Shown piece by piece: positions 1-28,430 of a stretch of DNA of 29,363 nt. The notes below the pieces were generated by a model, which had not been told where the DNA came from, made no database searches, and was given only the letters and a program-made list of their open reading frames with translations. Numbering within the stretch: position 1 is the first letter of the stretch; the number at the start of each line of letters is the position of its first letter. Source of the stretch: Linderina pennispora (taxonomy: Eukaryota > Kickxellomycota > Kickxellomycetes > Kickxellales > Kickxellaceae); NCBI RefSeq assembly GCF_002104995.1, contig NW_024468373.1:1-29363 (forward strand). The letters run 5' to 3'. A program made the translations under genes and the position numbers.

Positions 1-3000
1 ATGGCCAGGTGGGGCAGCACAGCCCCATGGCAGACCAGCCCAATACAGCACCCCCACCAGCGCATGGCCCGCAGTCCGTACAATCGAGGTGCCGGCCCGC
101 ATGGCAGACGACGATTTGGGGCGGAGGGAGTCGCGTCGGCGCGGGCACATGCAGCGGGTAATCGATGGGATCTCACGCGGATTCAGTCGGATGCGCACGC
201 GGCGCAGCGCCTCGCAGCCAGCGACGCGCGCGAGACCCGGCAGCGCATTGCCGATGCAGTTCAGCGCGAGATGGCCCAGCTGCCGTCACCGCAGCACATG
301 TACTTCCGGTACAATGTCGACCCGGCGGCACCGGTGGCCGACCGCACGAGCATCAGCGACTCGCCGATGGTCAACACGCCTACAGTCAGAGCGCCGACGC
401 ACCGCCGCAACCCGACGTTCCCGTCACGCACCTTCGACGAGATAGTGCAGTCGGTGGAAGAGCTCCCGCATGTGATCAAGTCTTCGCCGGTGTTCAGCAC
501 CGAGTCGCTGGCGCGCCTGTACGGGAGCGAGTCGGCTGGTGACATACCGCAGGTATTCCCAGCATCAGCTAGCCACTCGGCGGATGGACTAGCGGGCGGC
601 GTGTCGGTGGCGGTGGAGCAGAAGCTGACTGATGCGTTCATGCAGAGCGTCCACGTGTCATCGCGGCTGCATCGGAAGGTTAGCCCCGAGACATCGTACG
701 GGACGTTTGTGCGGTTCCATAGCAGCGGCGAGCTGACGGGCATCCAGGTAGCTGGGCAATACGTGAGCATGGAAGATATGGACCAGCCCGAGCACCTAGA
801 GTCGTACGCCAGTGACTTCGACGGCAGGCTGAGCCGGTGGTGCAGCCGATGGCCAGCTACCACCGCAACCACGCAGGAGTCATGCGGTTTGTCGAGACTA
901 TGCGAGCCAACCGCCAGGCCAGCGCGCGGCGCCGCACCGCAGCCGATGCAGAGCGCGTGCTGCAGCATAACCAGCAGGCGATGCTGGATGCAGCCCTGCA
1001 TATCGAGCAACAGCAACAGCAACAGGAACAGAGAAAGAAGCAGGAGGACCTGGAGCAAAGGAAGAAGCAGGGCCAGCAGCAGCCGCCTGTCTGCCCGGGC
1101 TCGAGACGCGCGGCAGCGCCGACACAGCGTCTTTGGTATCTTCTGCACGCCCGGCCATGGTACACCGTCGCCACCGGCGTCGCCTGCACTGCTGCCCAAC
1201 CGCGACAAACCGCTGCCATTGGTACCCGACGCACATGTGCTGACGCGCAGCCGGTCGTTCCCACACATGGCAGCGCGCGGTGGACACCAGACGGCACGCA
1301 TGTGGCATGGCATGACCGCGCAGACCACCCGCTGGAACACGCGACCCGCAGCGCACCGAGCGCATCAGCTACCCGCTGGGCTCGCAGCCGCGCATTATGG
1401 CTCCGGTTCCCGACGAAGCTGGCCGCGCAGCCGATCCGCTACAGATCCACGGCATCCTGGAGTCGATCCGGGTGCCTCTGGAGGCAGGACGCGTCCAGCG
1501 AGCGCAGCCGTCGTGGGTTCCTCTCGGGTTGCTGGGAAAACTGGCTGGACATCCGCGTCGCAGGCGGCACACGCGGCGACACACCGTGGCTGCCATTGAG
1601 GAGCCCATGCTGCCACGCCCGCCGTCGCCGCCGCCCAACGTCATGGTGAGGCATCCCAGTGGCCACACTGTCCGAGGATATCTGCGAGAACATCGCCAAC
1701 ACGTCCATTGACAACGCATTGTCGTCGACACAAGAAGCGCATGTACGCACAGGTTCTTGAATGCCCTGCGCGAGACTGGCTCGCAGCTTGTGCCGCGTGA
1801 CCCGGACCACGACTCAGGTCCTCTGGGCCACGAGTCGGTGGTCAGCCCGCCGCAAGACAGCTCTGCCTCCACGCACACAGGACTGGGATTGGTGGGCCGC
1901 AGCCCGCAGGCCTCCTATGAGCAGCCCGACGGTTGGCGTGACTCGGCCATAGCCAGCCATTGGACGCCGACGTCGGGTGCCCCCTCGGGTAAGGAGCGGG
2001 ACTGGCCAACGCCAGCAACGACGCGCTGGTATCGATGCCTCGCCGAAACCTGCGGAAGCTCCAGGGAGCACAGTCAGCGCCTGCCTCGCACGTGGTCTCG
2101 GGAGCCGCCAGCACCACCGGCTCGTTCACCGATATGTTTACGGGCGACCACGAGATCCTGCGCAACCACGCGTACTCGTTGTTGCCTGGCCTTGAGGGTA
2201 TCGGCTCGCCCAGCACCCAAAAGGCACAGTCGCCTGCTGAAGAACACGACCACCAGCTCGGCCTGCCGCCAGCCGATTACCGGCCGATCAGTGCCGGCAG
2301 GCGTTTCCAGCACGAGACCTTTGCGTCATACGAGTCGCCAGTCAGCGACACGGGCACTGGACGAACACAGATTCTGGACTTTGAGGAGCAGCATGTGAGC
2401 AAGGAGCCGGTTCATAGGCGGCCGTCGGCGCGTCCGGCGATCAAGGAGGTTGGCGAGCTGGATCTGGGGCGACTCCAATCCGACCCACATGGAGTCCCTG
2501 GAAACTGCTGCTGCTCAAGATTCCGCTTCTGCTGGCGTGTCGAGCTCGGTGCCAGTGAACAAGACGCCTGGCATACTAGTTAGCTCAGACAAGGAGGACG
2601 AGTCTGCCGAGGACAAGCCGACTGATCCCGAGACATTGGCCAGGCTTGTGATGGCGTCGCCGGATCCGCGCAATCTGATCTACGACTCCAACTCGCGCTT
2701 TGGGTCCATGGGGTCACCCGCTTCTAATTCCCAGGAGCCTGCGCGCCACATCGACTCGCTGTTTGCCGATGACGGAAAGCCGCTGGCAAATGCCAGCTTC
2801 GAGGTAAGTGTTTACTGCGTGTTTGTAACTCTGGGTGCACAAACAACAGCTTGTCGCGCCTTCACCTGGTCCATTGATCTGCCCACAGCCAGTATTGTTG
2901 CTGTTTCTTTGTTACCGCCCTCCTTCACCTCACCCACTAAGCACCTTCTCCTCCTCCTGCCCTTCACATTAGACATCCAACCACATAGCCGCCACCCAGA

Positions 3001-4764
3001 CCAGCGCTAGTGTCCTGGAGGGTATCCCGCTTGGCGACAGCATTGCAACTGCCGATACCGCCTCTAAGGATTCCGAACGCTTGCCGGTAATGGACGCCCT
3101 CCACATCGATACTCTGGCGCGGGTAAGCGTGCAGGCCCAGGCCTCACACGCGTCGCCGGCCACACAGAAGACCCAACTGACTGACTCGCCCGTCGCCCCA
3201 CCTGCCCAACTCAATGGCTCGCTGACACTACACGACTACGTGCAGCAGCAGAAGACGCATCCCGACGATCTGACGCCCGAGCAGGCCCACCGCCAGCTGG
3301 ACTTCCGTGTCAGCCTGCTCGACCACGCCTCTTCGCCGAAACCACGTGCCGCCTCACTGCCAGTACCGCCGCCCCAGCCAAGCACCCCTGGCATGCGGCC
3401 GCGCTCCGTATTCGCGAGTCCGCCTGTGGCAGCCGCCCTGGGAGCGCGCAATCTGCCAGCGACTTTCCAGTCCCTAGCCATGGCGTTGAACGAGGAGTTG
3501 GCGGATCGCGTGCTCTTTGACGCCCTGCTGGGCGATGGCGGTGCCTTGCAGCAGCCGGCATTGCAAGAGGTGCAGCGCCAGAGTCTGCCGTCTGCCCAGC
3601 CACTGTTTGATCCTGAAACAGATACCGGTGAGAACGGCGTGCCTGAATCAGTGGTGCAGGCGTTCATGGCCGGCGATCTGACGGCAATTGATCGGTTTTT
3701 CGCCCACGTGATGAAGCTCACTGCTCCTGCGTCGGTCTTTGACGGGGATTTTCCGATAACGACGACTGGGTTTACGGCCTTGACGGTCCGCCTGCGGAGA
3801 CCCGGGGCCGCAACCAGGAGAAAGTGCAGCCAATGGACATAACCGTGATGCCTGTTGCCGCTGTGGAGTCCAAGGAGATCGATCCGCCGCCGAACAACAC
3901 GCCGATGCCGGCGTCGCCGCCTCAGGAGGAGGAGTCCAAGGCGGCCTCAGAGAGCTCATCAGGACGCAAGATCGCGGTGCCCAGGTCGCGCATTGCACGT
4001 GCAGGTGGTGCATCCCGCTCTAGCATCCCGCTGTCGCCTAGTCTATCGTCCAACTTGTCACCACATCCGGCTGCCTCGCCACAGCAACCTGCCACGCCGC
4101 AGCAATCAGCCTCGCCAGTGACCTTAGCTTCTCCTGACAACTCCAGCTGGGTCCAGCATTTTTATGCTGCAACTCCGCCGCCCACACAACCGCAGAATCC
4201 ACCGCAGATCACAGTCGTCACTGAGCGGCCCGATCCGCCACTAGCTCAGCCCACAAGCGACCCAGAGCGTGTGCGCAACCGCAAGCTGCTGTTGACGCGG
4301 CTGCGCGTGCTGGAGGCCTGATCCAGCGCAACAAGCTGGAGGAATCTCGCCTGCAGCCGCCTCCTACATCGCCGATGCGCCCGCCGCTCTCGGCCGAACT
4401 CGAATCCATTGCATCCATTTACGAATCGAGTCTGGACATAAACGTCGATAGCTGCGAGTTTGCGCCACGCGCTGTGGAGCCACGCACTGTAGACAAGCCC
4501 GTGCAGCGCCGCCCGACCATCGACACGCGCAGGGTGCCTGGCAATGAGGTTTTGCGGAGGCTAAGGCTGAGTGCCGGGTCGCGTCAGACTAGGCCGTTCC
4601 GCGCCAGTATGCTGAACCGCGCGTTCCAGCCACCCTCCGAGCATAGCGAGGAGAGAGGTGTAGCTGCGCGTGGAAACCAGCGCCCAGTGGCTGGTAAGCA
4701 GCAGAGCGTGTTTGCTGCTTCGGGCCGGTTTGCAAGAACTGCAAATCTGCTTGGATCTGGGTAG
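1..4764 (+). CDS. Long Ser/Pro/Gln-rich disordered protein, unrecognised; frame-broken, possibly 5' partial
   Basis: I do not recognise this protein. Protein-like sequence runs almost without a break on this strand but changes frame about ten times: near 215, 835, 1090, 1360, 1640-1750, 2000, 2440, 3740 and 4315. One change is a normal intron (2804-2972). Composition is low-complexity: Ser, Pro and Ala-rich stretches and a Gln/Lys/Glu coiled-coil-like run at about 1000-1090. There is an acidic patch around 3745 and an Arg-rich tail ending at the TAG at 4762-4764. A possible start is the ATG at 101, which opens a basic segment (RRESRRRGHMQ, then GFSRMRTRRSAS), but the gene may begin left of the window. 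No enzymatic motif is visible. If the frame changes are assembly indels, the product is roughly 1450-1500 residues, perhaps a scaffold or cell-polarity protein; that role is a guess. It converges on the minus-strand gene, with 54 bp between stop codons. Confidence 0.55.
2804..2972 (+). other. Spliceosomal intron (169 bp, phase 0)
   Basis: The donor is GAG|GTAAGT and the acceptor follows a pyrimidine-rich stretch ending in ACATTAG. Removing 169 bases joins a frame that ends in codon GAG (2801-2803) to a different frame that starts ACA TCC AAC at 2973. Both flanks keep the same Ser/Thr/Ala-rich style. This is the only convincing intron I see in the window. Confidence 0.8.
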
Positions 4765-4778
4765 AAGACAGTTTTCCA

Positions 4779-4784
4779 TTTATT
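4779..4784 (-). terminator. Poly(A) signal AATAAA for the minus-strand gene
   Basis: AATAAA on the minus strand, 35-40 bases past the stop codon (TAA, ending at 4819), which is a usual distance for a cleavage/polyadenylation signal. Confidence 0.6.
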
Positions 4785-4818
4785 ACCTTGATATATTTGA
4801 AGTTCTTTCAGCAGTATA

Positions 4819-5595
4819 TTAGAAGTAGCATTTGCCGTCTTGACTTCCCTCGAACGTCTCACATGCCATAGAAAGTTCCGAGTCAACATTAGACATCTCG
4901 CCTGACTGCAGCTCCTCCAGCACAGACGGCGTACACGATTCCTCTGGGTAGGTGGACTGCGGTGAGCCCGTGTATGTCTCCGGCTGATATGTCTCAGGTG
5001 CCGACGATAGCTCAGACTGGACATCCGACGTCTCGCCTGACTGGGACTCCTCCAGCACTAACGATGTCTCCCAACCCCCTGAGTAACTGGCATACGTTGA
5101 GCCTGTATATGTCTCCGGGTCATACGTCCAGGGCGTCCACGACGACGTCACCGGAATCCACATCGTCTCAAACGAGCAAGACGTGCCGCTAGTGGAGTCA
5201 AGGAACGCATGGCACATGGTATGCAGGGTCATCGCCGTCGACGTTGGCGTCGGCATCTCGGTTGTGGTTGGCTTATTGTAATCGAGCGGCACAAACACGT
5301 AGTTGTTGTGCGAACCAATTGGGAACTCAAATGCCTTGTCAACGTACGCCGCGCCCATGTTGAATGTGCGCTCCATATCAACAGTGTTATTGTTGTTATC
5401 TATGAACGATCCATACTTGTGGTTGATGCACCCGAGCTGGTAGATATTGTAGTCTTTCTGTGTGAAGATCTCGCAGTAGTCGGCTGATGGCCGCTTGTTC
5501 GGGTCAAACGTGTTGCAAAACTGCAACATGCCGCCACCATTGAGGTGCATTGGCGTCCTGCAGTTGTTGTTGTGGAAGACGGTAGGAATCGACAT
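4819..5595 (-). CDS. Cysteine-containing protein with two C-terminal tandem repeats, unrecognised
   Basis: This 258-residue reading is not a family I recognise. I chose the ATG at 5595 because a TATA box lies about 80 bases upstream. The open frame continues to 5730, but that longer start would put the TATA box inside the coding region. Residues 1-150 are Asn-rich with six cysteines (12, 27, 41, 56, 128, 140). Residues about 160-204 and 205-248 are two tandem repeats, each beginning PETYTGS and continuing with SLVLEE or PSVLEE, QSGE and SELS. The second repeat adds Cys at 221 and 245, and the tail ends GKCYF. Composition resembles fungal surface or secreted proteins, yet no N-terminal signal peptide is visible at this start. 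A short upstream exon cannot be excluded. A TATA box and a poly(A) signal support expression. Confidence 0.7.
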   Translation of the reverse strand: MSIPTVFHNNNCRTPMHLNGGGMLQFCNTFDPNKRPSADYCEIFTQKDYNIYQLGCINHKYGSFIDNNNNTVDMERTFNMGAAYVDKAFEFPIGSHNNYVFVPLDYNKPTTTEMPTPTSTAMTLHTMCHAFLDSTSGTSCSFETMWIPVTSSWTPWTYDPETYTGSTYASYSGGWETSLVLEESQSGETSDVQSELSSAPETYQPETYTGSPQSTYPEESCTPSVLEELQSGEMSNVDSELSMACETFEGSQDGKCYF

Positions 5596-6267
5596 CAGAG
5601 GGAAACGCTGCAAAATGGAATTTAGAAGAAGCAGTGCTGGTTTGTGTGGAATGAAGGTAGATGTGGTCGGGTTTTTATAGTTCATTTGTCGGACTGCAGC
5701 CCAACCAGAGCTGCGGTCTGTGTAACGCAATATGTATTAGGGACATCCTCTCTGGTAGAGATTATCTTTGTTGACATTTTCAGCATATCAGCAGGCTCTT
5801 TCTAGAAACCGCTACTTCGATATGGACTGCGGTCTGGACTGATTTTGCTGCTGAACACATTGATTGCTGGGACATCCGTCTCCTTTTACAGCCAGGGGGT
5901 AGAATTAGAGTGATCTTTTTGATGTACCTGCGAAACCAGTTAAATGGCGTGGCTTCTCACTCCAAACCTTTCCGACATGTCCTAGTCAAGACTGTGTTGC
6001 TGCTCCAGCCAGCTTCTCATCTCCCTGTAAACACAATCAAGCTGTTCAAAGCTGAAAAGCCCCACTCACACGCCTCACTAGCATGTTCACAATTTGTTGG
6101 GTATTCGCATAGAGAGCTTGACAATATGCCCAATGCAAAACGTACAATAGTATGGTCCTGTGAGCACTATCCGCTTGCAATTTGTTTCTTGTCTCAAATA
6201 ACAGAGAGCCACCCTGCCCTTTAACGATACCAGTTTATTTCTCTTAACCGAATTACATATATTTACT
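5596..6267. other. Divergent intergenic promoter region (672 bp)
   Basis: This spacer lies between two divergent genes and should hold both promoters. Apart from the TATA box at 5672-5679 it contains no gene-like reading frame; the open frame at 5910-6224 has no recognisable protein character. I saw no operator-like repeats by eye. The P450 fusion start at 6268 follows an AT-rich leader and has no clear TATA box. Confidence 0.5.
5672..5679 (-). promoter_or_regulatory. TATA box of the 4819-5595 gene
   Basis: TATAAAAA on the minus strand. Initiation about 25-30 bases downstream would give a 5' leader of roughly 50 bases before the ATG at 5595. This decides against the longer in-frame starts upstream. 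Confidence 0.6.
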
Positions 6268-9200
6268 ATGCTTTCAACCTGCCCAGCTAACCACCAGTCA
6301 CCGCCCCTATCGCATCTCAAGGGTACTAGCAGTCCTGGTGCTGCAGATTTCTTTGTCATTGTCGTCGAGAGAGGCAAGCAGCCTGATAAAGATGGCTTCG
6401 TCGTCCAGGTCTCCGCCACGGATACTGATTTGGCACTGCTTCGTACCAGTATTGCTAGTCACGCAGCAGGAATCGCTATCCTGCCTGAAGCCATCGAAAT
6501 CGAAGACAGCGAGGGAAATGCGCTTGTTTCCATTGACCAAATCCAGGGCAGCAGGGTCGTATATATCGCCACGCCTATTACCGGCCGCGAGGCCGTGTTC
6601 GTCCCTGGCCATCCAATCTTCGGAGTAGTACTGATGGTCATGAAGGAAGTGCGTCAGAACACGAATGGGCTTTTCAATCAATATGGCGACACATACCAGT
6701 CCTATTTCTTTGGCATGAAGAACATGTCGACTCGCGACCCTGATGTATTTCACGCGACAATCAACGACGGTGAGTACTTCCAAAAGTCCATGGGCTACCC
6801 GTGGTCCGAGCTCCATGAACTGGCTGGCAATGGGCTTATCACCTCGTCATCAGACCATCCGGACTGGAAACTGGCACACCGCTTGCTTGTTCCTGCATTC
6901 TCCGCCAGCGCCATGAGGTTGCATGGGTACAAGATGATAGAGATCTCTGAGCAAGCCTGCAAATGGCTCGACAGCCGTATTGGCAAGCATTTCGATATGG
7001 TGGATTTTACTACTAGTATCACATTCCAGATGATCGGTAATATCGGATTCTCTTACGACTTCAACCTACTTGACCCAGCGGGGGCCGCTCAGCATCCGTT
7101 TATCATTGGCATGGACTACTGTTTCAAGCAGATTCAGCAGCGGTTCTACCGCACCCCACTCTGGAAATATTTGCCCATCGCTGCCAACCGCATGTTCGCC
7201 GAGCACATGCGCAATATGAGAGACACTGTGCAGCGGGTCATCGATGAGCGCCGCAACTCGCCGGACGCCGCGAGTATGAAGGATCTGCTTGGATTTATGC
7301 TTAATGCGCGCGCACCTGACGAGGACGGCAACCTGGTCGGGCTTAGCGACCGGCTGATCCAAGATGAGATCCTTACCTTCGGAATTGCAGGCACAGAGAC
7401 AAGCAGCTCGACTATTGCTTTTGCACTGCAGCTCTTGGACAAGCACCGCGACGTTCAGCATCGGGCGCTACAAGAGCTTGCTGCCGCTGGGATCACTGCT
7501 GACACATCGCCGACAATCCAGCAAACCAACAAGTTGACCTACCTGACACAGATTATCTACGAGACACTGCGCCTATTTCCACCGGTTCCTGGGTTACAAC
7601 GTGAGTGTCTGAAGGATTGTATCCTGCCTGGTGGCATCATTATCCGCAAGGGTGATACACTACGTCTCAGCATATGGAGTCTTCAGAGGAACCCGAAGTC
7701 ATTCCCGAACCCGACTGTGTTTGACCCAGACCGCTTTTCGCCTGAGAATATCAAGAATATCAAGCCTGGTGCGTGGGTTCCGTTTGCATCCGGTAGTCGT
7801 GCCTGTATTGGCCGTCAATTTGCCATGATGGAGCTGCGGGCTGTGCTAGCTCGCTTGCTGTCGAGATACGAGTTTCATGATGTTGGCGATGGTGAACTTC
7901 GGTATTGGCCAGGAAAAACCACCACAAGTCCGATGGATCTTTTCATGACTGTCCAGAAGCGCACGAGTCTTCCCGATGCCGACACTCCATTGGCAGCAGA
8001 CGCTGCTGGTGTCAATGGAAACCATACCGTCGAACATGCCGTTCTGCATCCACTTACTCACACCGTCTCTGCTGACAGGCTGCCGCGCACGTTCGTTGTG
8101 TACGGATCAAACATGGGTACCAGCGATGACTATGCGACGCAGATGGCCGAGCAGCTGAAGCGCATGGGGTTTGCTGACATTACTCTGGTGTCGCTGAATG
8201 ACTGGGACTTTGCTTCAATGCAGTCTGCCGATGGCAGGCGCTCTCTGGTTGTGGCTATTACCAGTACGTACAACGGAATGCCGCCCGACAACGCCAGAAA
8301 CTTTGCCAAGCTGCTCGACCAGGAGACCCGCGCCGACATCCTCAAGGACGTCGACTTTGTGCTGTTTGGCTGCGGCAACTCGCTCTGGCACACGTTCCTG
8401 AAGTTCCCGCGCCATCTGTACCAGCGTCTTGATGAGCTTGGTGCCACGCCACTGACGGAGTTTACAGCGGGAGATTCCAACGACGATCTCGACGACGAGT
8501 TCATGAAGTGGTCACTCCAGGTCGGGATGATTCTGACTGATCACTACGGCTCCAGTGTCGATGCCTACATTGATGTTGCCACGGACAAGTCGCTGCCGTA
8601 CTCGCTAAAGTACGTTGACAACAGCCCTGCTGCCCCGTTCAGATTGTCGCTGGAGAATGCATCAGTCAAAATCAACCGCGAGCTGCAGGACGTCGAAAGG
8701 AGCGGTCGCAGCACTCGGCATATCGAGATCACTCTGGATGACACATCGGATATCTCGTACACGACTGGCGACCACCTCAATATCTACCCAGTCAACGCAC
8801 CAGGTGTTGTGCGTGAGGTTTCTGCGATCCTAGAGCTCGATCTGGATACAGTATTCGAGCTGGAGCAGGTGTCGGACGCTTCGCGCTTTGCCCGTTCTGC
8901 TGCAGCAGCTATCTATGGCCACGCATGCACCGTCGGTGATGCCCTCCAATATGTCTGCGACTGGAAGGAAGCACCTTCACGCGAGCTGGTTGTTGCGCTG
9001 AGTGAGGCTTCAGGCAATGAGCCTGCCTATGATTCGCTGCGCAAGGCTGCTGAAGACGTCAACACGCTAGGCAAGCAGTCGGCTGGCTGGAGTGCATTCA
9101 CAGCACAGAACCGTACTGTTCTGGATGTGCTGCGCACGTATGCGCCGCTGGTGCGCCAGATTCCATTTGCAACGCTGCTTCACTTTGTGTCGGCCATGGA

Positions 9201-9846
9201 TCCCCGGCGGTACTCGATCGCCAGCTGCCAGTCGGTTGTTGGCAATGAAGTCCACATCTCAGCTGCCATTGTCAACGATACCGTCAATGGCCGTTCCTAC
9301 GGTGGCCTGGCAACTGAGTATCTGGCATCGTTGGAGGCGGGTGCTCGTGTATCTGTGTCACATCTCCCAGCGCAAGACGTGTTCCACCTGCCACCTTCAT
9401 CAGATGTGCCTGTGGTGTTTGTCGGCGCCGGTACTGGAGTTGCTCCGTTCCGCGGATTCCTGCAGGAGATGAAACATGCTGGCATTGGCGATGCCGCCAT
9501 GTACTTTGGCTGCCGCAGCCCCGAGTACGACTACCTGTACAGGGACGAGCTCGAGCAGTATGTCCAAGACGGCACGCTGTCCAAGCTGCAGACAGCATTC
9601 TCGCGGGTCGGTGATGAGCGCAAGTATGTGCAGCACCACGTTTCCCAGGATGGAGCCAAGATCTGGTCGCATCTGCAGAGCGGTGGGCGCATCTACGTCT
9701 GCGGATCGGCTGATAAGCTGGGCAAGAGTATGAGTGCAGCCATGGCTCGGATCTTTGAAGAGCATGGCGGCCTATCTGCCGACGAGGCGAGCACGTACCT
9801 TTCCGACCTGATCTCCGATGGTCGCTACGCCCAGGATATTTGGTGA
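6268..9846 (+). CDS. Self-sufficient cytochrome P450 : NADPH-P450 reductase fusion (CYP505/P450foxy-like) with extra N-terminal domain
   Basis: A 1192-residue fusion predicted to hydroxylate fatty-acid-like substrates with NADPH and O2, all redox partners on one chain. There is no signal or membrane anchor, so it is probably cytosolic. Domains: residues 27-102, an extra N-terminal domain not in the canonical family; P450 about 105-565, with I-helix AGTETSS (374-380), ExxR in YETLRLFPP (E432, R435) and heme loop FASGSRACIGRQF with ligand Cys513. Next come a linker at 566-605; an FMN flavodoxin domain from about 608 (YGSNMGTSDD; STYNGMPPDN); and FAD/NADPH domains with RRYSIASC (980-987), GGLATEY (1012-1018) and VGAGTGVAPFRGF (1052-1064). 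The last residue is Trp1192, as in other P450 reductases. The segment LAGNGLITSSSDHPDW matches the BM3 substrate-channel region, but Ile191 sits where BM3 has Phe87. The frame is intact. An AATAAA lies just downstream. Confidence 0.95.
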   Translation: MLSTCPANHQSPPLSHLKGTSSPGAADFFVIVVERGKQPDKDGFVVQVSATDTDLALLRTSIASHAAGIAILPEAIEIEDSEGNALVSIDQIQGSRVVYIATPITGREAVFVPGHPIFGVVLMVMKEVRQNTNGLFNQYGDTYQSYFFGMKNMSTRDPDVFHATINDGEYFQKSMGYPWSELHELAGNGLITSSSDHPDWKLAHRLLVPAFSASAMRLHGYKMIEISEQACKWLDSRIGKHFDMVDFTTSITFQMIGNIGFSYDFNLLDPAGAAQHPFIIGMDYCFKQIQQRFYRTPLWKYLPIAANRMFAEHMRNMRDTVQRVIDERRNSPDAASMKDLLGFMLNARAPDEDGNLVGLSDRLIQDEILTFGIAGTETSSSTIAFALQLLDKHRDVQHRALQELAAAGITADTSPTIQQTNKLTYLTQIIYETLRLFPPVPGLQRECLKDCILPGGIIIRKGDTLRLSIWSLQRNPKSFPNPTVFDPDRFSPENIKNIKPGAWVPFASGSRACIGRQFAMMELRAVLARLLSRYEFHDVGDGELRYWPGKTTTSPMDLFMTVQKRTSLPDADTPLAADAAGVNGNHTVEHAVLHPLTHTVSADRLPRTFVVYGSNMGTSDDYATQMAEQLKRMGFADITLVSLNDWDFASMQSADGRRSLVVAITSTYNGMPPDNARNFAKLLDQETRADILKDVDFVLFGCGNSLWHTFLKFPRHLYQRLDELGATPLTEFTAGDSNDDLDDEFMKWSLQVGMILTDHYGSSVDAYIDVATDKSLPYSLKYVDNSPAAPFRLSLENASVKINRELQDVERSGRSTRHIEITLDDTSDISYTTGDHLNIYPVNAPGVVREVSAILELDLDTVFELEQVSDASRFARSAAAAIYGHACTVGDALQYVCDWKEAPSRELVVALSEASGNEPAYDSLRKAAEDVNTLGKQSAGWSAFTAQNRTVLDVLRTYAPLVRQIPFATLLHFVSAMDPRRYSIASCQSVVGNEVHISAAIVNDTVNGRSYGGLATEYLASLEAGARVSVSHLPAQDVFHLPPSSDVPVVFVGAGTGVAPFRGFLQEMKHAGIGDAAMYFGCRSPEYDYLYRDELEQYVQDGTLSKLQTAFSRVGDERKYVQHHVSQDGAKIWSHLQSGGRIYVCGSADKLGKSMSAAMARIFEEHGGLSADEASTYLSDLISDGRYAQDIW

Positions 9847-9856
9847 TTAATATTCC

Positions 9857-9862
9857 AATAAA
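9857..9862 (+). terminator. Poly(A) signal AATAAA of the P450-reductase gene
   Basis: AATAAA 10 bases after the stop codon, in the AT-rich sequence that follows the gene. Confidence 0.55.
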
Positions 9863-10145
9863 TTGCAAGCTGAATTCTCACTCCCGCTGAACAGCAGGCG
9901 GTGCTTTTCAGCGCATCATGACCCAAGACTGTTAGCCATGTCTAGATATGGACACACTATTTATGCCTCGTCTAAGAGAATAGCTGGAGATCGTCGCTAC
10001 TTCACGAAGTAAACAAAAATATCGGAAACGACGCTCAGGCGCCAACTGATTTTCGGGCCATTTCTCAGCGCCCTTCTTGTCTCCACAAATATACCCATTT
10101 CTATTTTTACCTCATACTTTTTTTAACCCTCTTAGAGTTTTAGAG

Positions 10146-11015
10146 ATGTCAAACTACCGTGGCTACAATTCCGGCGCATCTGGCAATGATGGCGGCTTCC
10201 GTCGCTACGGGGGTGCTAGCTCCCGCTACAATGCTAGTGGTGGCGGTAGCAACGACAGCTACGGCGACAGCAGCCAACAACGCCAGTATGACGATTCGGA
10301 CGAAGAAGTCGACTTCATCAAGACAAAGATTACTAAGGCCAAGCAGGACACCTTGGACTCGACCCGTAATGCGCTGCGCACACTGCAGCAGACTGAGGAT
10401 GTGGGTGTCAAGACCCTGACGAAGTTGGGCGAGCAGACGGAGCAGCTGAACCGCATCGACCGCACAATGGAGATGACTAGCTTGCAGGCCGAGAGCTCGG
10501 TGGAGCAGACAGGCAAGCTGCGCACACTCAACAAGTCGATTTTCCACGTTCATGTCAAGAACCCGTTCAGCGGCAAGAAGCGCCGTGAAGCAGAGATGGC
10601 AAAGCTCGAGGCCGAGCAGGAGCGTGTGCGCCTGGCCGAGGAGCGCAAGCTGCAAAACGACCACGAGTCGCGTAACCGCATTGGCCGTTTTACGAACCCG
10701 AACGGGCTCCGGGCCGCCGGCCCACCAGGCCGCATGACGGCCGATGGCCACACCATTGTGTCAGACACCGGTATGTCAAGGTCGGAGCGCTCAAAGTATA
10801 CCTTCGATGACAACGAGGATCCCGAGATTGAGAACGAGATCAACGATAACCTGAATGAGATGAGCTCGGCGCTGGGTCGCCTCAAGGACCTGTCTCTGGC
10901 CACGCAGCGTGAGCTGAATGCCCAGGATGACCCGCTCCGGCGTATCACTGATACAACTGACAAGACCAGCGACAACATCGGCGTTGCTCGGTACCAACTC
11001 AGCCGCATCAAGTAA
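10146..11015 (+). CDS. SEC9: SNAP-25-family t-SNARE (Sec9-like)
   Basis: A 289-residue Qbc SNARE that would supply two helices to the plasma-membrane exocytic SNARE complex, with a syntaxin (Sso1) and a synaptobrevin (Snc1). Residues 1-50 are Gly/Ser/Tyr-rich and disordered. SNARE helix 1 spans about 55-130, with the ionic-layer Gln at Q97 (GEQTEQLNRID). A basic linker with NPF (139-141) and a charged helix at 145-175 follow. SNARE helix 2 spans about 226-288, ionic-layer Gln Q260 (ELNAQDDPLRRI). Both glutamines are in the positions expected from SNAP-25. The linker lacks the cysteine cluster that is palmitoylated in neuronal SNAP-25, as in yeast Sec9. The start at 10146 was chosen over an in-frame ATG at 10077 because the extra segment is hydrophobic and translates pyrimidine-rich leader sequence. 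The head is shorter than that of S. cerevisiae Sec9. A Spo20 or SNAP-29 relative is the alternative. Confidence 0.9.
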   Translation: MSNYRGYNSGASGNDGGFRRYGGASSRYNASGGGSNDSYGDSSQQRQYDDSDEEVDFIKTKITKAKQDTLDSTRNALRTLQQTEDVGVKTLTKLGEQTEQLNRIDRTMEMTSLQAESSVEQTGKLRTLNKSIFHVHVKNPFSGKKRREAEMAKLEAEQERVRLAEERKLQNDHESRNRIGRFTNPNGLRAAGPPGRMTADGHTIVSDTGMSRSERSKYTFDDNEDPEIENEINDNLNEMSSALGRLKDLSLATQRELNAQDDPLRRITDTTDKTSDNIGVARYQLSRIK

Positions 11016-11176
11016 CCAATGTAAGGGGGCTTTCACTTCATTTTCCTTTTTCCTTCCAATATACTACCACCATTACATTACCTGGAATCTAGACGAACAT
11101 TCAATATTATCCGCTGCTCTATGCAGTGGGATAACGTTATATTCATTCAGCTAGAGATGAAGAGAGGAAAAGATTT

Positions 11177-12496
11177 TTAGCTGCACTTTCCAATGCCAGA
11201 CGAGGTACTGGTTACCTTGTCCGCCATGTTCTGGCAGTTGTCCGCCGAAAGCCAAGAAACAGGCGCCTGCTTTGGAAGGTTGCGGTGCCAGATAGCCTCA
11301 GTGGTGCCATCGTTGGCAGCATGGATGCGGATGAAGTCGGCCAGCAGCAGATCAGGCTGGATCTGCAGGTGCTCGTTAAAGTCAGTGGCATTGTTGACAC
11401 TGCTGATGTGGTCAGTGCGGTAGATTGAGTTGTCAGCGACAACGCGCAGCTTCTGGTTGTCATTGAACTGGTAGCCGTCAACTAGGTTGTCCCACAGGGG
11501 GATAGTCGCGCCGCCGCGCTTCAGGGGCTCGGTGCTCATATCGATCAGCACATCCCAGTCACCTATCGCTTTGTGGAAGCTGTCGACGTTGCTGTACCCA
11601 GTGACATCGCCTGCATGAACAGTAAGGCCAGCATCAGCCAGGCCCTGTACGAACCACTGCTGGCCCTGGTCAACGGTCCAGCTGGTGACAGTGCCGTTGG
11701 GGACCCGGTTGTAGCGCGCAAAGCCGACGGTTTTGGTCTGCTTGGTCAGCCCCGTAGACTTGGCGTGGTCCTGCAGGCAGGCATAGCGCGACTCGATGCC
11801 CTCAAACAGCTTGTTGGCATCAGCCTCGCGGTTATAGAAGGCGCCGACAAACTTTATCCACTCAGCCTTGCCCAGCATATCGGTTGCGCTCTCTGGGTTG
11901 ACAGCGACCGAGTACGGGTCACTCATGCCATAGGTGGTGAAGGTCCAGTCCAGCACGTTATCGCCAAGGTCATACGACACACGCGGGGTCAGGATTGCGC
12001 GGCGGCTGTTTTTGGTCTTGGGTGTGCCAAAGTTCTGCTGGATCCGGGGGAGTCCATCCAGCCGCTTCTGCATGCAGGGTGATGTCACCTCCAGGAACTT
12101 GTACGAGGCACCGACCGAGTCCTGCTCACCGAGTAGCTCTAGAATCGCGCTGGCCGGAGCCGAGTCCAGGGCAACCTTCTTGGCTGGCACGTCGAAGACC
12201 TTTGTCCAGTCGCCGACTTGAGTGCTGGTTGCATCGGTAGCTGGGTGATCGGCCGGAGCCGGGGTGCCGCACTGCACCAGGATGTAGTTTTCGTCCGACA
12301 CAAGGTTACGAATGACCTTGTAGTTTTTGTTATAGCTGATCTCGAACCCAGCGCCGTACTTGGTGGTGACCTTGTCTGGGAAGTAGTCTTTGCTGGGATC
12401 AAACTTGGTGACGCAGCCAGACTCGTTGGCGATCGCTGGTGCAGCAGCCAGAAGCGCCGCGAGGGAGACAGCAATGACGTTGATTCTGAAGAGCAT
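11177..12496 (-). CDS. Secreted periplasmic-binding-protein-like protein (iron-siderophore/B12 SBP fold, TroA-like)
   Basis: A 439-residue protein resembling bacterial ABC-transporter substrate-binding proteins for ferric siderophores and cobalamin (helical-backbone metal receptor fold). Residues 1-23 form a signal peptide (hydrophobic core, AxA-type end APAIA) with no lipobox, so a soluble secreted or wall protein is expected. Family-like features: FEISYNKNYKVI followed by YILVQCGTP (51-79), VPAKKVALDSAPASAILELLGE (103-124), AEWIKFVGAFYNREADANKLF (211-231, very like the bacterial helix) and LQIQPDLLLADFIRIHA (377-393) near the end. Six cysteines (28, 76, 141, 240, 421, 438) could form disulfides, which suits eukaryotic secretion. 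The ATG at 12496 is preferred because only non-ATG starts lie upstream. The ligand is unknown; iron chelate or heme are options. No ABC permease is nearby. Assignment rests on remembered family patterns, not on a search. Confidence 0.75.
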   Translation of the reverse strand: MLFRINVIAVSLAALLAAAPAIANESGCVTKFDPSKDYFPDKVTTKYGAGFEISYNKNYKVIRNLVSDENYILVQCGTPAPADHPATDATSTQVGDWTKVFDVPAKKVALDSAPASAILELLGEQDSVGASYKFLEVTSPCMQKRLDGLPRIQQNFGTPKTKNSRRAILTPRVSYDLGDNVLDWTFTTYGMSDPYSVAVNPESATDMLGKAEWIKFVGAFYNREADANKLFEGIESRYACLQDHAKSTGLTKQTKTVGFARYNRVPNGTVTSWTVDQGQQWFVQGLADAGLTVHAGDVTGYSNVDSFHKAIGDWDVLIDMSTEPLKRGGATIPLWDNLVDGYQFNDNQKLRVVADNSIYRTDHISSVNNATDFNEHLQIQPDLLLADFIRIHAANDGTTEAIWHRNLPKQAPVSWLSADNCQNMADKVTSTSSGIGKCS

Positions 12497-13948
12497 CTTT
12501 TGGGAATAGAGGGAAATGGTTTGGCAGTATGTCGGCAGTGAAAGCAAGTCAGCTCGTGCGACGATGAGCTTTTTAAATTGCAATTTAAAAGAAGGTGCGA
12601 CCGCTAAAGATTGATGAATGTTGTAGTGGCTCGAGGCTTGATGAGGTGAGAAGGCAGTTGTTCGAGCAGAAGGGACAAGTCTATATATATGTCACCTTTG
12701 ATCAGCGTCCACCGTCTCCAGCTTAGCCCCAATGCATGTCAACCACTACTCAAAAAAATAGAAAAAAACTTGACTCGGTTGACGATGGATGTTGGGCCTA
12801 AAAATTATCCAGCTGCAGACGAGTCGTAAGCCTGATTAGTTCTTGACATGTTGCCCAGCATGTCCATGCCCAACCACTCTTGAGCACTGTGACTATTGTG
12901 TCCATTGCTATGGGCGCGCTCCCGCAGATATTTTTAGATTCTAAAAACTGCCAAGTGGTGCACGGCGTGACCTCACCTGCTCCCTCCTTCTTCAAGCGAT
13001 GGGGGTCCTGGGCAAGAGACCTGCATGGTGTGGTGGACGCAGAGACTCTGCATTGTTGGTGGCCGACAGGTGCCAGGATTGAAAGCTGTTTGAAGGCGGC
13101 CTGCGTTTGTGTGAATTCCCAACAGCCCATGTTCTCAGGTTGGACTTTTCTGGATTGGCCGCGCAGCATGGGGCACCGGGGTTTGCTCACTCGAGCATCA
13201 TGGATCTTGGAGGGGGTGCGGTAGGCAAACGTGCAGGGGGTACGGGTTCATGGCTTTTGCAGTTTCTTTAGATAGCTGGTCCCAGTGTCGCCTGTCCCAA
13301 CATGTATGCCCGCAAGAGGTCCCTCTTTTGCTATCTTTACGGCTCAGTTTTTGGGGGCTTGGAAGAGCAGCCAGCCAGAGATGCGTGGCGTGGTGAGCAT
13401 GAGGTAGGCAGTCAATGGAGAGAGAATGCTCGCCCAAAAATACCACATCTAGTCTTCCCATTCGGCCATTGCTTGGCCAATATCCTATATGCCCGAAAAA
13501 ATGGCCTTGACTGGCGCACAGCACCGAGCATATGCACAGATAACGCACGACCCCTTTGTAACATCTGCATCCACCCTCCGAACGTTCCATTTTCTCTTTG
13601 TCAACTGAGAACACCTTTCCATCCAGCGAATAATCCAGCACAGCAACTGCAGTATCTTTATTAGCGTCCACCAGCTTGGGTTGTCCGGGCGCTCACTGCA
13701 TTGCGCAATTATACGTGCATTGTTGGGTGCCTCAGCCAACAGCACCCTCTACTCTGAGGCTGGCAGATCCGCAGCTGTCCCTACATGTCGCCACGCCAGG
13801 TCCCAGCCATCACTGATCTAATTCACCACGATCCACAGCATGGAATCAAGACCACCTAAGCCTTTTGGTCGGAGCTGCGACAGGCGCTTCGGCTTCTCCT
13901 CCACAAATTTTGTTTGGCTTTATTCAATTCTGCAGGCGCTCGAGAAGA
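12497..13948. other. Long spacer (1.45 kb), no convincing gene
   Basis: It separates two divergent genes and is the longest stretch without an assignable gene. Its left part (12570-12800) is AT-rich promoter-like DNA. Minus-strand reading frames at 13198-13671 and 13485-13745 look weakly protein-like where they overlap (LDYSLDGKVF), but they start at non-ATG codons and need a frame change to join. I saw no tRNA-like A/B boxes. Confidence 0.45.
12682..12690 (-). promoter_or_regulatory. Possible TATA box of the SBP-like gene
   Basis: A TATATATAG run on the minus strand about 190 bases before the ATG. The distance implies a leader of about 160 bases, which is rather long, so the assignment is tentative. 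Confidence 0.35.
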
Positions 13949-14671
13949 ATGCTGGGTGACGAATGCTTCAAGCTGGCCAAGGAGGCCAAGGATGTGACAC
14001 CGGACCACATTCCTGCCTATAATGAGGAGCTGGTGCGCCTTGTAACTCAGGAGTCGCGATATCTGTGGCGACGCGTCGTCGAGCTTATCCAGGCGACAGA
14101 GTCCTCCAGCCAACAGAGCTCCTCGGGTGTGTTTAGTCCCAGCCAGTCGACCAGCAAGCCGGACCTTTCTTCGCAGCCTTTCAGCAACGACCCCGCAGAC
14201 GTGAGCCGCTCCATGGAAAGCGAAAACATGCAGGGCCAGGTCGCGCTTTACGTGCACACGATTGAGCGCAACAAGCGGTGTCTGATGGCGTACCACCGGA
14301 AACGGGCAGAGTTTCTGCAGTCGTTGCTGTGGGCAGTGCATTTAGCGCCGACGATGGTGCCACAGAATGTGTCGCAGAGACTGGCGCCTGAGGAGCAGAA
14401 CTATGCAAGAGAGTATGCAAAGCTCAACATGAAGTACAGAGATAGCGTGGAGGCCACATTGTGTCCGAATGATTCGCTTGACTGGGCCTTGAATGGAGAG
14501 GTACCGCCGCGCGATTTGCTGATCGAAGTGCGTGTACACAGAGACTGCGGTGAGATTGTAACCCAGTCTGGTATCGTCAACCTGCAAGCCGGCACCCAGC
14601 ACTACCTGTGCCGCTCGGATGTCGAGCACTTGCTGACCATCGGGTATCTTGAGCACATCAACCCGACATAG
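13949..14671 (+). CDS. PSF1: GINS complex subunit Psf1
   Basis: A 240-residue Psf1, one of four GINS subunits that join Cdc45 and Mcm2-7 to form the replicative helicase in the nucleus. It begins MLGDECFKLAKEAK, the usual N-terminal helix, and continues through IPAYNEELVRLV. The family signature RNKRCLMAYHRKRAEFLQSL is at 108-127. The C-terminal B domain has DLLIEVRVHRDCGE (189-202) and GTQHYLCRSDVEHLL (215-229), and the chain ends YLEHINPT. The human and yeast proteins are about 200 residues. The excess is a Ser/Gln-rich insertion at about 51-95, between A-domain helices. The start at 13949 is set by homology. The frame is open upstream without an ATG, and another ATG at 13841 opens a short overlapping frame that ends at 13963. 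A CTGCAG before the start could be a splice acceptor, so a non-coding upstream exon is possible. Confidence 0.92.
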   Translation: MLGDECFKLAKEAKDVTPDHIPAYNEELVRLVTQESRYLWRRVVELIQATESSSQQSSSGVFSPSQSTSKPDLSSQPFSNDPADVSRSMESENMQGQVALYVHTIERNKRCLMAYHRKRAEFLQSLLWAVHLAPTMVPQNVSQRLAPEEQNYAREYAKLNMKYRDSVEATLCPNDSLDWALNGEVPPRDLLIEVRVHRDCGEIVTQSGIVNLQAGTQHYLCRSDVEHLLTIGYLEHINPT

Positions 14672-23371: not shown

Positions 23372-23635
23372 AGCGTGATCACAGCAAATCGATTAAGGAA
23401 TTTGCACTCGACAGCGTATGGCTGGACGACTCCGTCTGCTGCTGCATGCGTGGAAGCCTTCAGCAACAGCAGAATCAGGATGCCAGCCAGCTTTTGTGCT
23501 AGCGTTAATGCCCAAGAATAGCTTCCTAGAAAGCGCCAAAACTGCCCTCCCCAACACCAACCAGGAAATCACCTTGCATGCGCGGACAGATGCGCATACG
23601 CACGCAACTAGTTGGCTCAAGCTGGGCTCGTAAAG

Positions 23636-23706
23636 CAGCGAAATAAAACAGCAAAAAAAACAGCAAAGAAAACAGCAAAAAAAAAAACAGCAAAAGAAAA
23701 CAGCAA
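23636..23706 (+). repeat. A-rich CAGC microsatellite-like repeat
   Basis: Five to six units of CAGC separated by A-runs with an occasional G, at 12-15 base spacing (CAGC at 23636, 23649, 23661, 23673, 23688, 23701). It lies between Ypi1 and the first copper oxidase. It is a length-variable simple repeat, and apparent minus-strand coding across it is an artefact. Confidence 0.75.
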
Positions 23707-24015
23707 GTTCAACTGTATGAATGATCCGCAATGTACATGCAGGATAATGGCAACTCCTTCACCCTAGCTGTCTTTGTAAGCTGCCTTTTTTCTCGCGATT
23801 TCCCGAGTGTGGCGTCTCTCGCTAATGCCAGCGCAAATTGGGAGGACTGCCTCGAATGCCAAACAGCTGGTGATCCCCTGTCCCCCGGCTTACGCAAAAG
23901 AGTGCCTCACAACCCCGACTCGCACGCTCCCCCGATGTCCGTCCGTAGCCGCTCTGCTACGAGCAATGTCCGACCAGCTCTTTGAGGCATATTATCTTGC
24001 AGCAAAAATCTCTCT

Positions 24016-24021
24016 TATAAA
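24016..24021 (+). promoter_or_regulatory. TATA box of multicopper oxidase 1
   Basis: TATAAA about 100 bases before the ATG at 24120, followed by a pyrimidine-rich leader. The second copy has a TATA box at a nearly equal distance. Confidence 0.6.
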
Positions 24022-24119
24022 GCACACGGGTATCCTGCAGTCCATTGTTCCTGCAACATCCCTCTGCATCCCCACCCTCCTCCCTGCTATATCTCCGCCT
24101 ATTACCTACTACCTATAAA

Positions 24120-25750
24120 ATGCGTCTTTCGAGCTGCATTCTCCTTTTTGCTGCCGCAGTGCAAGCAAAGCGAGTTGTCCACAACTGGGACATCACCTAC
24201 TTGAACACCAGCCGCGGCCTGGACCAGGCGCCGAAGCGCGGCATCACTGTCAATGGAAAGTTCCCGCTGCCCATTGTTGAAGCTGAAGTCGGCGACCTTC
24301 TGGTGCTCAATGTCCACAACTCGCTCGACGTGCCCACTTCTCTGCATGCCCATGGTATCTACCAGCATGGCACCAACTACTACGATGGTGTTGGCATGTT
24401 CACCGAGTGCTCGATTGCCCCCGGCAGCAACTTCACGTACGAGATCCCCCTGAAGCAGTCAGGAACCCATTGGATCCATGGACACACAGCCGAGCAGAAC
24501 TTTGACGGGCTGCGCACCACCCCTCATCATCCGTGACCCCCGGGAGCGCTGGGACTACGATGACGAGTACTTGTTTGTGCTTGAGGACTGGTCGCCCGTG
24601 GACCATGCAGCAGTCAATGGATTTCCTGCTGAAACCGAACCTGGCCGGCCTGCCCCTCAACCCGCCGCCCCACGGCCTCATCAACGAGTCAATGGCACGC
24701 TTACCAAGCCCATCAAGTTTGAGCCTGGAAAGACCTACCGCATCCGCCTTCTCCCGATGACGAGTTTCCCGAACCTCGAGTTTTGTCATTGACGACCACG
24801 ACCTGATTCTGTACGAGATCGATGGCGTGCGCACAAAGCCCAAGACGCTGAAGACTATCCGTGTTACCCCTGGACAGCGCGCCTCGGTGCTGGTCAAGGC
24901 AAAGCGGTCAAGGTCGAACAACTACTCGTACCATGTCACCATGAACTCGCCGGGAACGCCTGTGCTCGCTGGTGCCCTGCCATTCACATTCAATGGCACT
25001 GTCGAGTACGACCCCAAGGCGCCGCCTTGGCTCCACCACTGTGATTCCGTCTGAGGAGTTCGATGAGCTCACCGCCGAGTCGCTCGACTACCTGCCGGCG
25101 CTCCAGGACCGACCACTCACTTCTTCATGAACGCCACGTGGGGATTCACGCCAGACGTCGTCCTGTACGATACCTTCGACTATGTTGAGTTCCGCGCACC
25201 CAAGGTCCCAACACTGTTCAGCGCACTGACCATGGGCGACAAGGCCAAGAACCCGCTCATCTACGGCCCACAGACAAATGCCAGGGTGCTAAACTACAAC
25301 GAGGTCATTGAAATAGTCCTGTTCAGTACCTCGATTGCACCCCACCCATTCCACCTCCACGGCCACACGTTCCAGGTCAATTGAGCGTGGCATGCTTCAT
25401 GATGTCAATGGAACCACCCGCCGCACCGTCCCAGCTATGGCTTCTCGCCTCTTCGCCGCGATACTGTGTTCCTTGGTCCATTCCAGTATGTTGTGATTCG
25501 CTTCCGCGCCGACAATCCGGGTGTGTGGCTCTTCCACTGCCACATGGACTGGCACAGCCCGAATCTCCGTAGTGTATTTGTTTCTGCGCCTGATGTCATG
25601 CAGAGGACACTGAGGGTCCCGCAGTCAGTTTTTGACCAGTGCCGCATTCCAGGGTATTCCGACCAGCGGAAAACGTGGTTGGTAGAAATGACTAACAACA
25701 TCGACGGTGCGCCAATCCTTCCTGCACTCCTAGCCAGCCCTCCTCACTAA
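24120..25750 (+). CDS. Secreted Fet3-like multicopper oxidase, copy 1 (frame-broken)
   Basis: A roughly 540-residue three-domain blue copper oxidase spread over several frames. Signal peptide: MRLSSCILLFAAAVQA. Copper motifs in order: SLHAHG (24338-24355), WIHGH (24471-24485), HPFHLHGH (near 25345-25368) and HCHMDWH (25535-25555). Fet3-like blocks such as APKVPTLFSALTMGD and [10 protein letters not shown] support a Fet3 relationship. There is no C-terminal membrane anchor, so a soluble secreted enzyme is expected. Frame changes lie near 24516, 24596, 24690, 24785, 25030, 25110, 25382 and 25433. Conserved sequence resumes after each one, so assembly indels are more likely than decay. The acidic residues that make yeast Fet3 a ferroxidase (Glu185, Asp409) appear absent, so the substrate may be phenolic or another reductant rather than Fe(II). 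No Ftr1 permease gene is adjacent. An AATAAA follows at 25819. Confidence 0.85.
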
Positions 25751-25818
25751 TGGCGCTGCCTCATTACAATAGACGCACACATTGTTGATTAGTGGATTGC
25801 AGATGTGATACAAATGGC

Positions 25819-25824
25819 AATAAA
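25819..25824 (+). terminator. Poly(A) signal AATAAA of oxidase 1
   Basis: AATAAA about 70 bases after the stop codon of copy 1, in AT-rich sequence. Confidence 0.5.
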
Positions 25825-26445
25825 TAGCAGCATCACAAATAATCTATTAACGTATTGAGTATATGTACCATGTACCACGAAGGTATTAGCTCCTCAAATG
25901 CGCAGATCTCTGCTGCAGACTGATTCCATCTTGGGTGAGCCATCAAACCAACATACTATATTATGATAGAGCTGCTGACAATTCTGCATTTAGATATGTG
26001 CATTGTCCATTTTGTTGTCTGTCTCTTGCCATTTTCTGCTGATGCATTGTGCTTGTATTGAGTATGTTGGGACCAATTGTCGCTAAAAAAGAATGGCACG
26101 GTATATGTGATGCAGACACCTGATACACAGTCCTAGCGGCATCAGGTGTAGTCATTTGGCGGAATTGCGGCTGTTGTCTGCAGCCAGTAGTGGAAAATGT
26201 TGAGTACAAGACATTTGTGAATGCGATAAGCAGGATGTGCCCAACACCATTGGACACAAGAAATGCCAACCACATTGATGCAGACCGAAGCACAATTCTA
26301 AATCTCAACCAAACCAATGCAGCGTGGCGATGAGTTCCTTGGGCAATCTATCGTAGCCATTTCTCCCTCTACCTTTTTGTGTTTTCAATTGTTCTAAGCA
26401 TGCCACCAGAGTTCTGCAAGGCATGGAGCTGGGCCCGAGATAGGG

Positions 26446-26453
26446 TATATAAA
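26446..26453 (+). promoter_or_regulatory. TATA box of multicopper oxidase 2
   Basis: TATATAAA about 95 bases before the ATG at 26545. Confidence 0.6.
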
Positions 26454-26544
26454 GCAGCAGACATCTGACATGCATTCTTATTTCAAACGCATCTCAGACC
26501 CACACTTTCATTCGTCTACTTCATTCCATCTCATCATTCCTGTA

Positions 26545-28174: not shown

Positions 28175-28430
28175 TGGCTTGACAGATAGGCCAATCGTGA
28201 TCTTTAGGATACTTTCCACACACTGTTTGAAAACTAATTAGAGAAATATGATGCAGTTAACCAATTTCTATATGGCATAGCTGCTATATATGAATTACCA
28301 GAAATCCTGGCCCAACCCATTTCCTTAATGTATCACATGTAGTGTTTATCAATCAATAGTTGAAAATTGCAGCTCAAGCTGTTGGAATCAAACGCGCACT
28401 TTTCTCGAACACACAAATTGTATCAGAATA

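Follow-up and report, generated by a model that had tools for sequence, protein, structure and literature searches.

A predicted soluble CBA1-family protein of the fungus Linderina pennispora with a possible role in corrinoid capture

The gene and its genomic setting

The window analysed here is the whole stretch of 29,363 nucleotides of DNA from the kickxellalean fungus Linderina pennispora, which is the entire contig C30. On its reverse strand, a frame running from 12496 to 11177 is unbroken over 439 codons, and this intact gene holds all three motifs quoted in the original prediction, VPAKKVALDS (residues 103-112), AEWIKF...NREADAN (residues 211-228) and LQIQPDLLLADF (residues 377-388). Several of the features listed below are given relative to CBA1, cobalamin acquisition protein 1, of Chlamydomonas (Cre02.g081050) and Phaeodactylum (PMC10828217), or to the clade of close fungal relatives of the window protein.

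11177..12496, reverse strand: CBA1-family coding sequence, 439 amino acids plus stop, single open frame; at least 37 clade homologues; PF01497
12428..12496, reverse strand: putative signal peptide, residues 1-23, by inspection, presumably cleaved between AIA and NESG
12371..12385, reverse strand: YFPDK motif, residues 38-42; K42 stands at the position of CrCBA1 K78
12074..12076, reverse strand: C141 (SPCMQK), a cysteine of the eukaryotic type that may pair with C421
11825..11866, reverse strand: AEWIKFVGAFYNRE, residues 211-224, the block of CrCBA1 E206/F214/F215/N216/E218 (F215 is Y here)
11690..11698, reverse strand: sequon N267-G-T, within the loop that leads to W273; 21/21 clade rows, and the motif in 38/38 clade proteins
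11384..11392, reverse strand: sequon N369-A-T, standing where the GG(L/N) loop would be, next to the B12 cluster reported for CBA1
11372..11380, reverse strand: F373-N374-E375, in the place of CrCBA1 W394-F395-E396; the Glu alone is kept
11234..11236, reverse strand: C421, eukaryote-type C-terminal cysteine
C24, locus L005, about 1465-2945, forward strand: canonical CBA1-like gene, its frame broken at several places in the assembly
C179, locus L003, 1081-2523, reverse strand: divergent paralogue of 480 amino acids; its ectodomain resembles the family's, a hydrophobic segment lies close to the C-terminus, and the tail is short

The N-terminus, MLFRINVIAVSLAALLAAAPAIA followed by NESG, looks on inspection like a eukaryotic signal peptide and has no lipobox cysteine, in agreement with the original prediction, and hydropathy alone finds an N-terminal hydrophobic stretch in 37/38 proteins of the clade. 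The six cysteines that had been taken to suggest adaptation to the secretory pathway are real (residues 28, 76, 141, 240, 421 and 438), yet they are no novelty of this gene, as all six align with cysteines common in the canonical and the other eukaryotic (streptophyte-type) groups; in bacteria, too, cysteines are common at C28 and C76. The C141 column is C in 52/52 eukaryotic-type rows and in at most 10% of bacterial rows; the C421 column is C in 21/21 window-clade, 13/13 canonical and 17/17 other eukaryotic-type rows and a gap in 42/43 bacterial rows. In 31 of 38 clade proteins the chain ends one or two residues past the last cysteine. C240 and C438 are absent from the remaining rows of the 21-row clade alignment, as would be seen after the joint loss of two bonded cysteines, the pairing itself being presumed.

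A sequon near the N267-G-T site also occurs in 11/13 canonical rows. The nearby W273 column, which is W in 21/21 clade and 41/43 prokaryotic rows, aligns through the bacterial profile with a BtuF residue that we take to be F168. The N369 sequon is found in 21/21 clade rows and in 0/13 canonical, 0/17 other eukaryotic-type and 0/43 bacterial rows; across the 38 clade proteins, the site reads NATD in 34 and NASD in P0020, and three partial proteins end before it.

Profiles assign the product to the class-III (Peripla_BP_2) kind of bacterial-type substrate-binding protein, as had been proposed. The window protein itself matches PF01497 at 16.5 bits (E 0.0057) and does not reach the curated cut-off of 27.5 bits. 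Within its clade, 24/24 aligned members have a PF01497 match with E<=0.01, the best being 6.5e-6; among the matches listed in the protein search below, the best prokaryotic PF01497 relative scores 5.5e-26. Searched in six frames, the whole genome (26.2 Mb, 222 contigs) gave no PF01497 match, and the window gene itself was missed. The window protein alone, compared with solved structures, matched 17 of them weakly, at best with E 0.1, and most of these were flavodoxins.

Positions 1-6000, about 9750-13996 and 23500-29363 of the window correspond in order to a single region of contig C57, with 97-98% identity. The window ends match C57:302359-308437 and C57:326078-331953 at 97% and the stretch around the gene at 97-98%, and C30 therefore reads as the other haplotype of C57. 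We considered and rejected the C57 copy as a paralogue, since it too reads as the other haplotype; the two versions of the gene differ by 16 nucleotides and 5 amino acids (dN 0.0050, dS 0.0369). Bacterial contamination of the contig, against which the original prediction had advised a check, is ruled out by this haplotype synteny and by the clade homologues. Nothing unusual surrounds the gene: the window also encodes a P450-reductase fusion, a SNARE-like protein that falls short of the Pfam cut-off, PSF1, ankyrin repeats, RabGAP-TBC and pieces of multicopper oxidase. The fusion (6268-9846, forward strand; 1192 amino acids), presumably CYP505-like, joins a P450 to flavodoxin, FAD and NAD reductase domains. 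Two adjoining multicopper oxidase genes lie at about 24045-25750 and 26470-28086 (forward strand) in several frames, reflecting introns or frame breaks, and positions 5048-5595, inside the frame 4819-5730 (reverse strand), have copies at C57:185669-186207 and C219:7351-7889 that are 73-74% identical.

Relatives and place in the CBA1 family

A search of 5.8 billion proteins with the window protein gave 203 matches. Among the 120 listed, at least 37 proteins with 53-99% identity form the clade, and at least 36 named clade proteins (54-99%) come from Linderina, Coemansia, Martensiomyces, Dipsacomyces and Kickxella; beyond an identity gap, the listed matches are prokaryotic PF01497 proteins at 24-34%, with the eukaryotic-looking P0065 among them. 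A search with P0065 gave 23 proteins including P0065, among which Closterium (with two strains), Riccia and Cryptomeria are named, and the name prefixes of further relatives presumably denote Mesotaenium, Spirogloea and Ginkgo. The group fits the streptophyte CBA1-like proteins of a paper whose available text names Ginkgo biloba (PMC10828217), and we infer that they are the same. Using hhalign, the clade profile matches 14 streptophyte-type CBA1-like proteins at 1.4e-49 over 376 columns, the canonical Kickxellales group at 1.8e-49 over 356 columns and bacteria at 1.8e-44; the link to CBA1 runs through the 14 streptophyte-type proteins, and CrCBA1 was compared by its published residues.

In a 95-row tree, 43 prokaryotic rows stand apart from 52 eukaryotic-type rows with an SH-aLRT of 100, at a point where the program warned of long branches meeting; a careful 51-row tree, without long end branches, has the same split at 100/100 and groups the window clade with the streptophyte-type proteins (90/77). 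Nesting of the window clade in the core bacterial group was rejected (p-AU 0.0003). Forcing the window clade together with the canonical group gave a tree 20.5 log units better (p-AU 0.77) in the 92-row set and 4.4 log units lower (p 0.40) in the 51-row set, and a position just outside the other eukaryotic groups, where the 92-row quick tree puts the clade with a support of 32, was not rejected (p-AU 0.25). The window clade has the longest internal branch in both trees (1.43 with 95 rows, 1.62 with 51 rows). With column-sharing thresholds that we set ourselves, nine columns are common to the three eukaryotic groups against bacteria, five to the window clade and the canonical group alone, one to the clade and bacteria alone and none to the clade and the streptophyte-type group alone; clade-wide switches include T113A, A258G and Y281W. 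The rejected core nesting and the residues common with other eukaryotic groups speak against the transfer from bacteria that had been suggested. A scan of viral_contigs with the streptophyte-type alignment gave 25 pattern matches and no relatives. On the evidence of profiles, trees and diagnostic residues, the placement is in or beside the eukaryotic CBA1 family, and the gene is probably an old eukaryotic member of it, duplicated in fungi.

A genome search with the window protein returned the other haplotype, the gene on C24 and the gene on C179. The frame breaks of the C24 gene are probably sequence errors, since an intact 473-residue version exists as L. pennispora EC988_005573 (P0123; 95%). 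This canonical protein keeps P-x-(V/I)-x-W and W-F-E, at which all 13 canonical rows have W or F, then F or Y, then E, and its tail, which on inspection resembles a GPI signal, suggests that it is probably GPI-anchored. The window-type and canonical proteins occur in the same genomes, belong to the same family and have the five columns to themselves; unlike the canonical protein, with its W cluster and hydrophobic tail, the window clade has neither. Twenty taxon names carry both genes, and a missing name means little because the matches are cluster representatives. The C179 protein gave no Pfam or NCBIfam match and lies on a very long branch in the 95-row tree, so its placement is unsure.

In the published model of CrCBA1, W255, W394, F395 and E396 cluster around B12, and a C-terminal transmembrane helix is predicted (PMC10828217). 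We compared K78, P118, E206, F214, F215, N216, E218, P251, V253, W255, W394, F395, E396 and D408, with equivalence set by motif spacing and L136 and G289 left out. Nine of these 14 residues are identical in the window protein, the changes being F215Y, P251K, W255F, W394F and F395N. Within the B12 cluster, W255, W394 and F395 are each found in 0/21 clade rows and E396 in 21/21, and with one of four cluster residues kept we file the window protein as a divergent family member and not as a CBA1 orthologue. The family core is invariant (K42, P81, E212, F220, N222, E224, E375, D387 and W273, each 21/21 clade rows), and the K42 column is also K in 37/43 bacterial rows. By hydropathy, a C-terminal hydrophobic tail is present in 0/38 window-clade, 27/30 canonical and 16/21 other eukaryotic-type proteins. 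Like CBA1, the window protein has homology to the streptophyte-type proteins, a signal-peptide-like start, METH in its genome and no known ABC permease partner; unlike CBA1, its clade has no C-terminal membrane anchor, has P251, W255, W394 and F395 replaced and an invariant sequon in the neighbouring loop, and occurs beside a canonical copy in the same genomes. The sequence comparison thus points to a derived soluble form that retains the family core and has been remodelled on one side of the presumed cleft.

Prokaryotic relatives, permease contacts and the B12 and iron economy

A scan with the bacterial profile over 84,980 species, one genome per species, gave at least 592 pattern matches and at least 552 relatives. 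We took the best 80 loci and ran Rfam on all of them, the riboswitch models being RF00174 and RF01482 (cobalamin clan). In this sister family, a cobalamin riboswitch lies upstream on the same strand at 59 of the best 80 loci, within 1 kb in 41; the other 21 have none, and three of these hold less than 300 bases upstream. Ten neighbouring frames from five loci comprise four FecCD permeases (at four loci), two ABC ATPases, two TonB receptors and, both in L020, one fasciclin-domain protein and one further PF01497 protein. Because of the riboswitch at 59/80 loci and the FecCD permease beside four of five, we conclude from sequence that the prokaryotic sister family is a component of B12 importers. 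Among the matches listed, the prokaryotes nearest to the window clade are of this riboswitch-linked kind, and relative P0120 (among the 120 listed of 203) bears the name of a cobalamin transport binding protein. Many sources name the proteins of these loci (L018-L097) "iron complex" binding; the names look wrong, and probably generic, since a cobalamin riboswitch precedes 59/80 loci. The best solved relative of the bacterial profile is the heme protein IsdE (4.8e-11), followed by other iron-type proteins and then BtuF (2.3e-8), and in NCBIfam three bacterial relatives score higher with IsdE than with BtuF wherever both match, all far under the cut-offs. At the W255 column, Trp is outside the five commonest letters in the riboswitch-linked bacterial group, which argues that this Trp is not needed for a bacterial B12 role.

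The fungal protein has the class-III binding-protein core of BtuF and of the P0053-type prokaryotic proteins, and has in common with the latter the N-terminal YFPDK/CGTPAP region, within the hhalign match at 1.8e-44. Unlike the fungal protein, the P0053-type proteins carry both docking Glu residues (43/43) and have FecCD beside four of five loci. The two Glu at the lobe tips of BtuF dock on the permease. E201 and E338, which align with the BtuF Glu of the NLE and SRE motifs, are each present in 43/43 bacterial rows, E201 in 0/52 and E338 in 3/52 eukaryotic-type rows (none in the window clade). Both columns are loosely aligned in eukaryotes, with 9/17 other eukaryotic-type rows gapped at E201; an acidic residue (Asp or Glu) is found no more than three columns away in 38/52 (E201) and 34/52 (E338) eukaryotic-type rows, and the window protein and 10/21 clade rows have Asp at the E338 place. 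In agreement with the proposal that the fungus has no ABC permease for such a protein, a six-frame search detected no FecCD permease in the genome, with 13 of 14 control genomes positive; a very divergent permease may be missed, since the six-frame PF01497 search missed the window gene.

Four to seven B12 families are reported for Entomophthoromycotina, Kickxellomycotina and Zoopagomycotina (PMC8085122). The genome encodes MetH (TIGR02082, 1336 bits over 990 residues), methylmalonyl-CoA mutase pieces, cobalamin adenosyltransferase (2.7e-52) and an LMBR1-family protein (4e-102), and has three PF02310 matches, two above the cut-off. The B12-independent MetE is also present, and CblC had zero matches in the genome, with a control that was equally silent. 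On the iron side, an FTR1 gene and, about 2 kb from it, a match to multicopper oxidase (C13:738293-742127) are likely a reductive iron uptake pair, and IucA/IucC-type siderophore synthetase matches lie at C203:20770, C157:539244 and C13:50649-51330, those on C203 and C157 scoring alike, so that they may be two haplotypes. The FTR1 and IucA/IucC-type matches suggest that iron has its own route. No ATCWGATAA element occurs in the 904 bases upstream of the window gene.

Readings of the protein's function

The account we favour, while holding it tentatively, is that the protein is a secreted, soluble corrinoid binder of the CBA1 family that feeds an anchored endocytic route. The window protein, a probably glycosylated family member, would leave the cell and bind a corrinoid (B12 or an analogue) in its re-shaped cleft; the corrinoid would be handed to, or concentrated for, the anchored CBA1-like protein of C24, which would be internalised by endocytosis, with LMBD1-type export taking the place of an ABC importer. 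Within this account, the family is well supported, secretion is predicted from hydropathy, the ligand is plausible and the hand-off is presumed. It draws on the family membership, the riboswitch-tied sister family, the docking Glu lost at aligned places, the undetected FecCD, the B12-using enzymes and the co-existing canonical C24 copy. Against it stand the loss of three of the four B12-cluster residues (W255, W394 and F395, 0/21) and the N369 sequon in place of the glycine loop, which might keep a corrinoid from binding; the docking-Glu columns are loose and have acidic residues nearby, the FecCD absence comes from a six-frame search of the kind that missed the family of the window gene, MetE is present, the riboswitch is missing at 21/80 bacterial loci and CblC is unmatched with a silent control.

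The same rebuilt cleft may instead mark a neofunctionalised CBA1-family protein that does not bind B12, acts on another small molecule or as a decoy or structural protein, and leaves B12 to the C24 protein, a reading we consider possible with lesser probability. The clade-wide replacement of the cluster residues, the equally clade-wide adjacent sequon, the longest internal branch in both trees and the switches T113A, A258G and Y281W speak for such a change of function, and there is a parallel in streptophytes, whose CBA1-like proteins occur mostly without METH and for which the authors consider a function change possible (PMC10828217). It is countered by the family core residues, kept in 21/21 rows, by the few amino-acid changes between haplotypes and by the scarcity of Trp at W255 in riboswitch-linked bacteria as well.

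That the protein captures siderophores or heme, as a fungal equivalent of the diatom protein FBP1, seems unlikely. Many prokaryotic relatives among the 120 listed of 203 do bear iron-complex names, IsdE ranks ahead of BtuF both among solved structures and in NCBIfam, and the fungus has IucA/IucC-type matches; these points are met by the riboswitch at 59/80 of the relatives' loci, the name of P0120, an iron uptake served by FTR1 and the multicopper oxidase, and the missing upstream ATCWGATAA element. Of the originally predicted siderophore or B12 ligand, the B12 part thus gains from the family evidence, whereas the siderophore or heme part has distant profile similarity alone. FBP1, the diatom ferri-hydroxamate binding protein, had been named as a precedent and does not serve as one by descent, as it derives from gram-positive hydroxamate receptors according to the available text of its description, which sets it apart (PMC6876252). 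The likeness lies in the use of a bacterial-type binding protein at a eukaryotic surface with no ABC importer, the origin being separate on that description.

Bacterial contamination or a recent bacterial gene transfer into Kickxellales is highly improbable, even with prokaryotic relatives outranking the eukaryotic P0065 in the first search, an unrejected tree with the clade just outside the other eukaryotic groups (p-AU 0.25), a support of 32 for that position in the 92-row quick tree, the long-branch warning and one column common to the clade and bacteria alone, given the two haplotypes, the fungal-type neighbours, the 20 taxon names with both genes, the rejection of core-bacterial nesting, the nine eukaryote-common and five canonical-only columns and, among the matches listed, no prokaryotic protein inside the window clade.

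The favoured reading of a secreted corrinoid binder admits a bolder extension, which we regard as rather doubtful: a three-part extracellular capture of corrinoids in Kickxellales, in which a GPI-anchored C24 protein, a transmembrane C179 protein and the soluble window form would all derive from one CBA1-type ancestor. The soluble form would be a diffusible scavenger or reserve with an invariant N-glycan site in the cleft region, a fungal counterpart of the intrinsic factor and haptocorrin of animals made from a former ABC subunit that has lost its permease contacts.

The system is not wholly undescribed, as had been supposed, since CBA1-like proteins are published for five non-kickxellalean fungi that have METH (PMC10828217). 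A literature search that had most subscription journals outside its scope found nothing on the window protein, its soluble clade, the riboswitch-linked sister family as the origin of CBA1, or cobalamin in Coemansia; for vitamin B12 in Kickxellomycotina it gave PMC8085122. B12 use in fungi has been recognised only recently, and the available text of the CBA1 study describes the B12 role of CBA1 in fungi as untested so far and a test there as of interest (PMC10828217). The window gene and its canonical sibling offer a concrete pair with which to test a fungal B12 uptake route. The riboswitch-linked sister family indicates that CBA1 likely arose from ABC B12 importers and hints at the contacts that disappeared with the permease, and a soluble CBA1-family form with an altered binding site may mark an unstudied fungal way of capturing B12 or a similar molecule.
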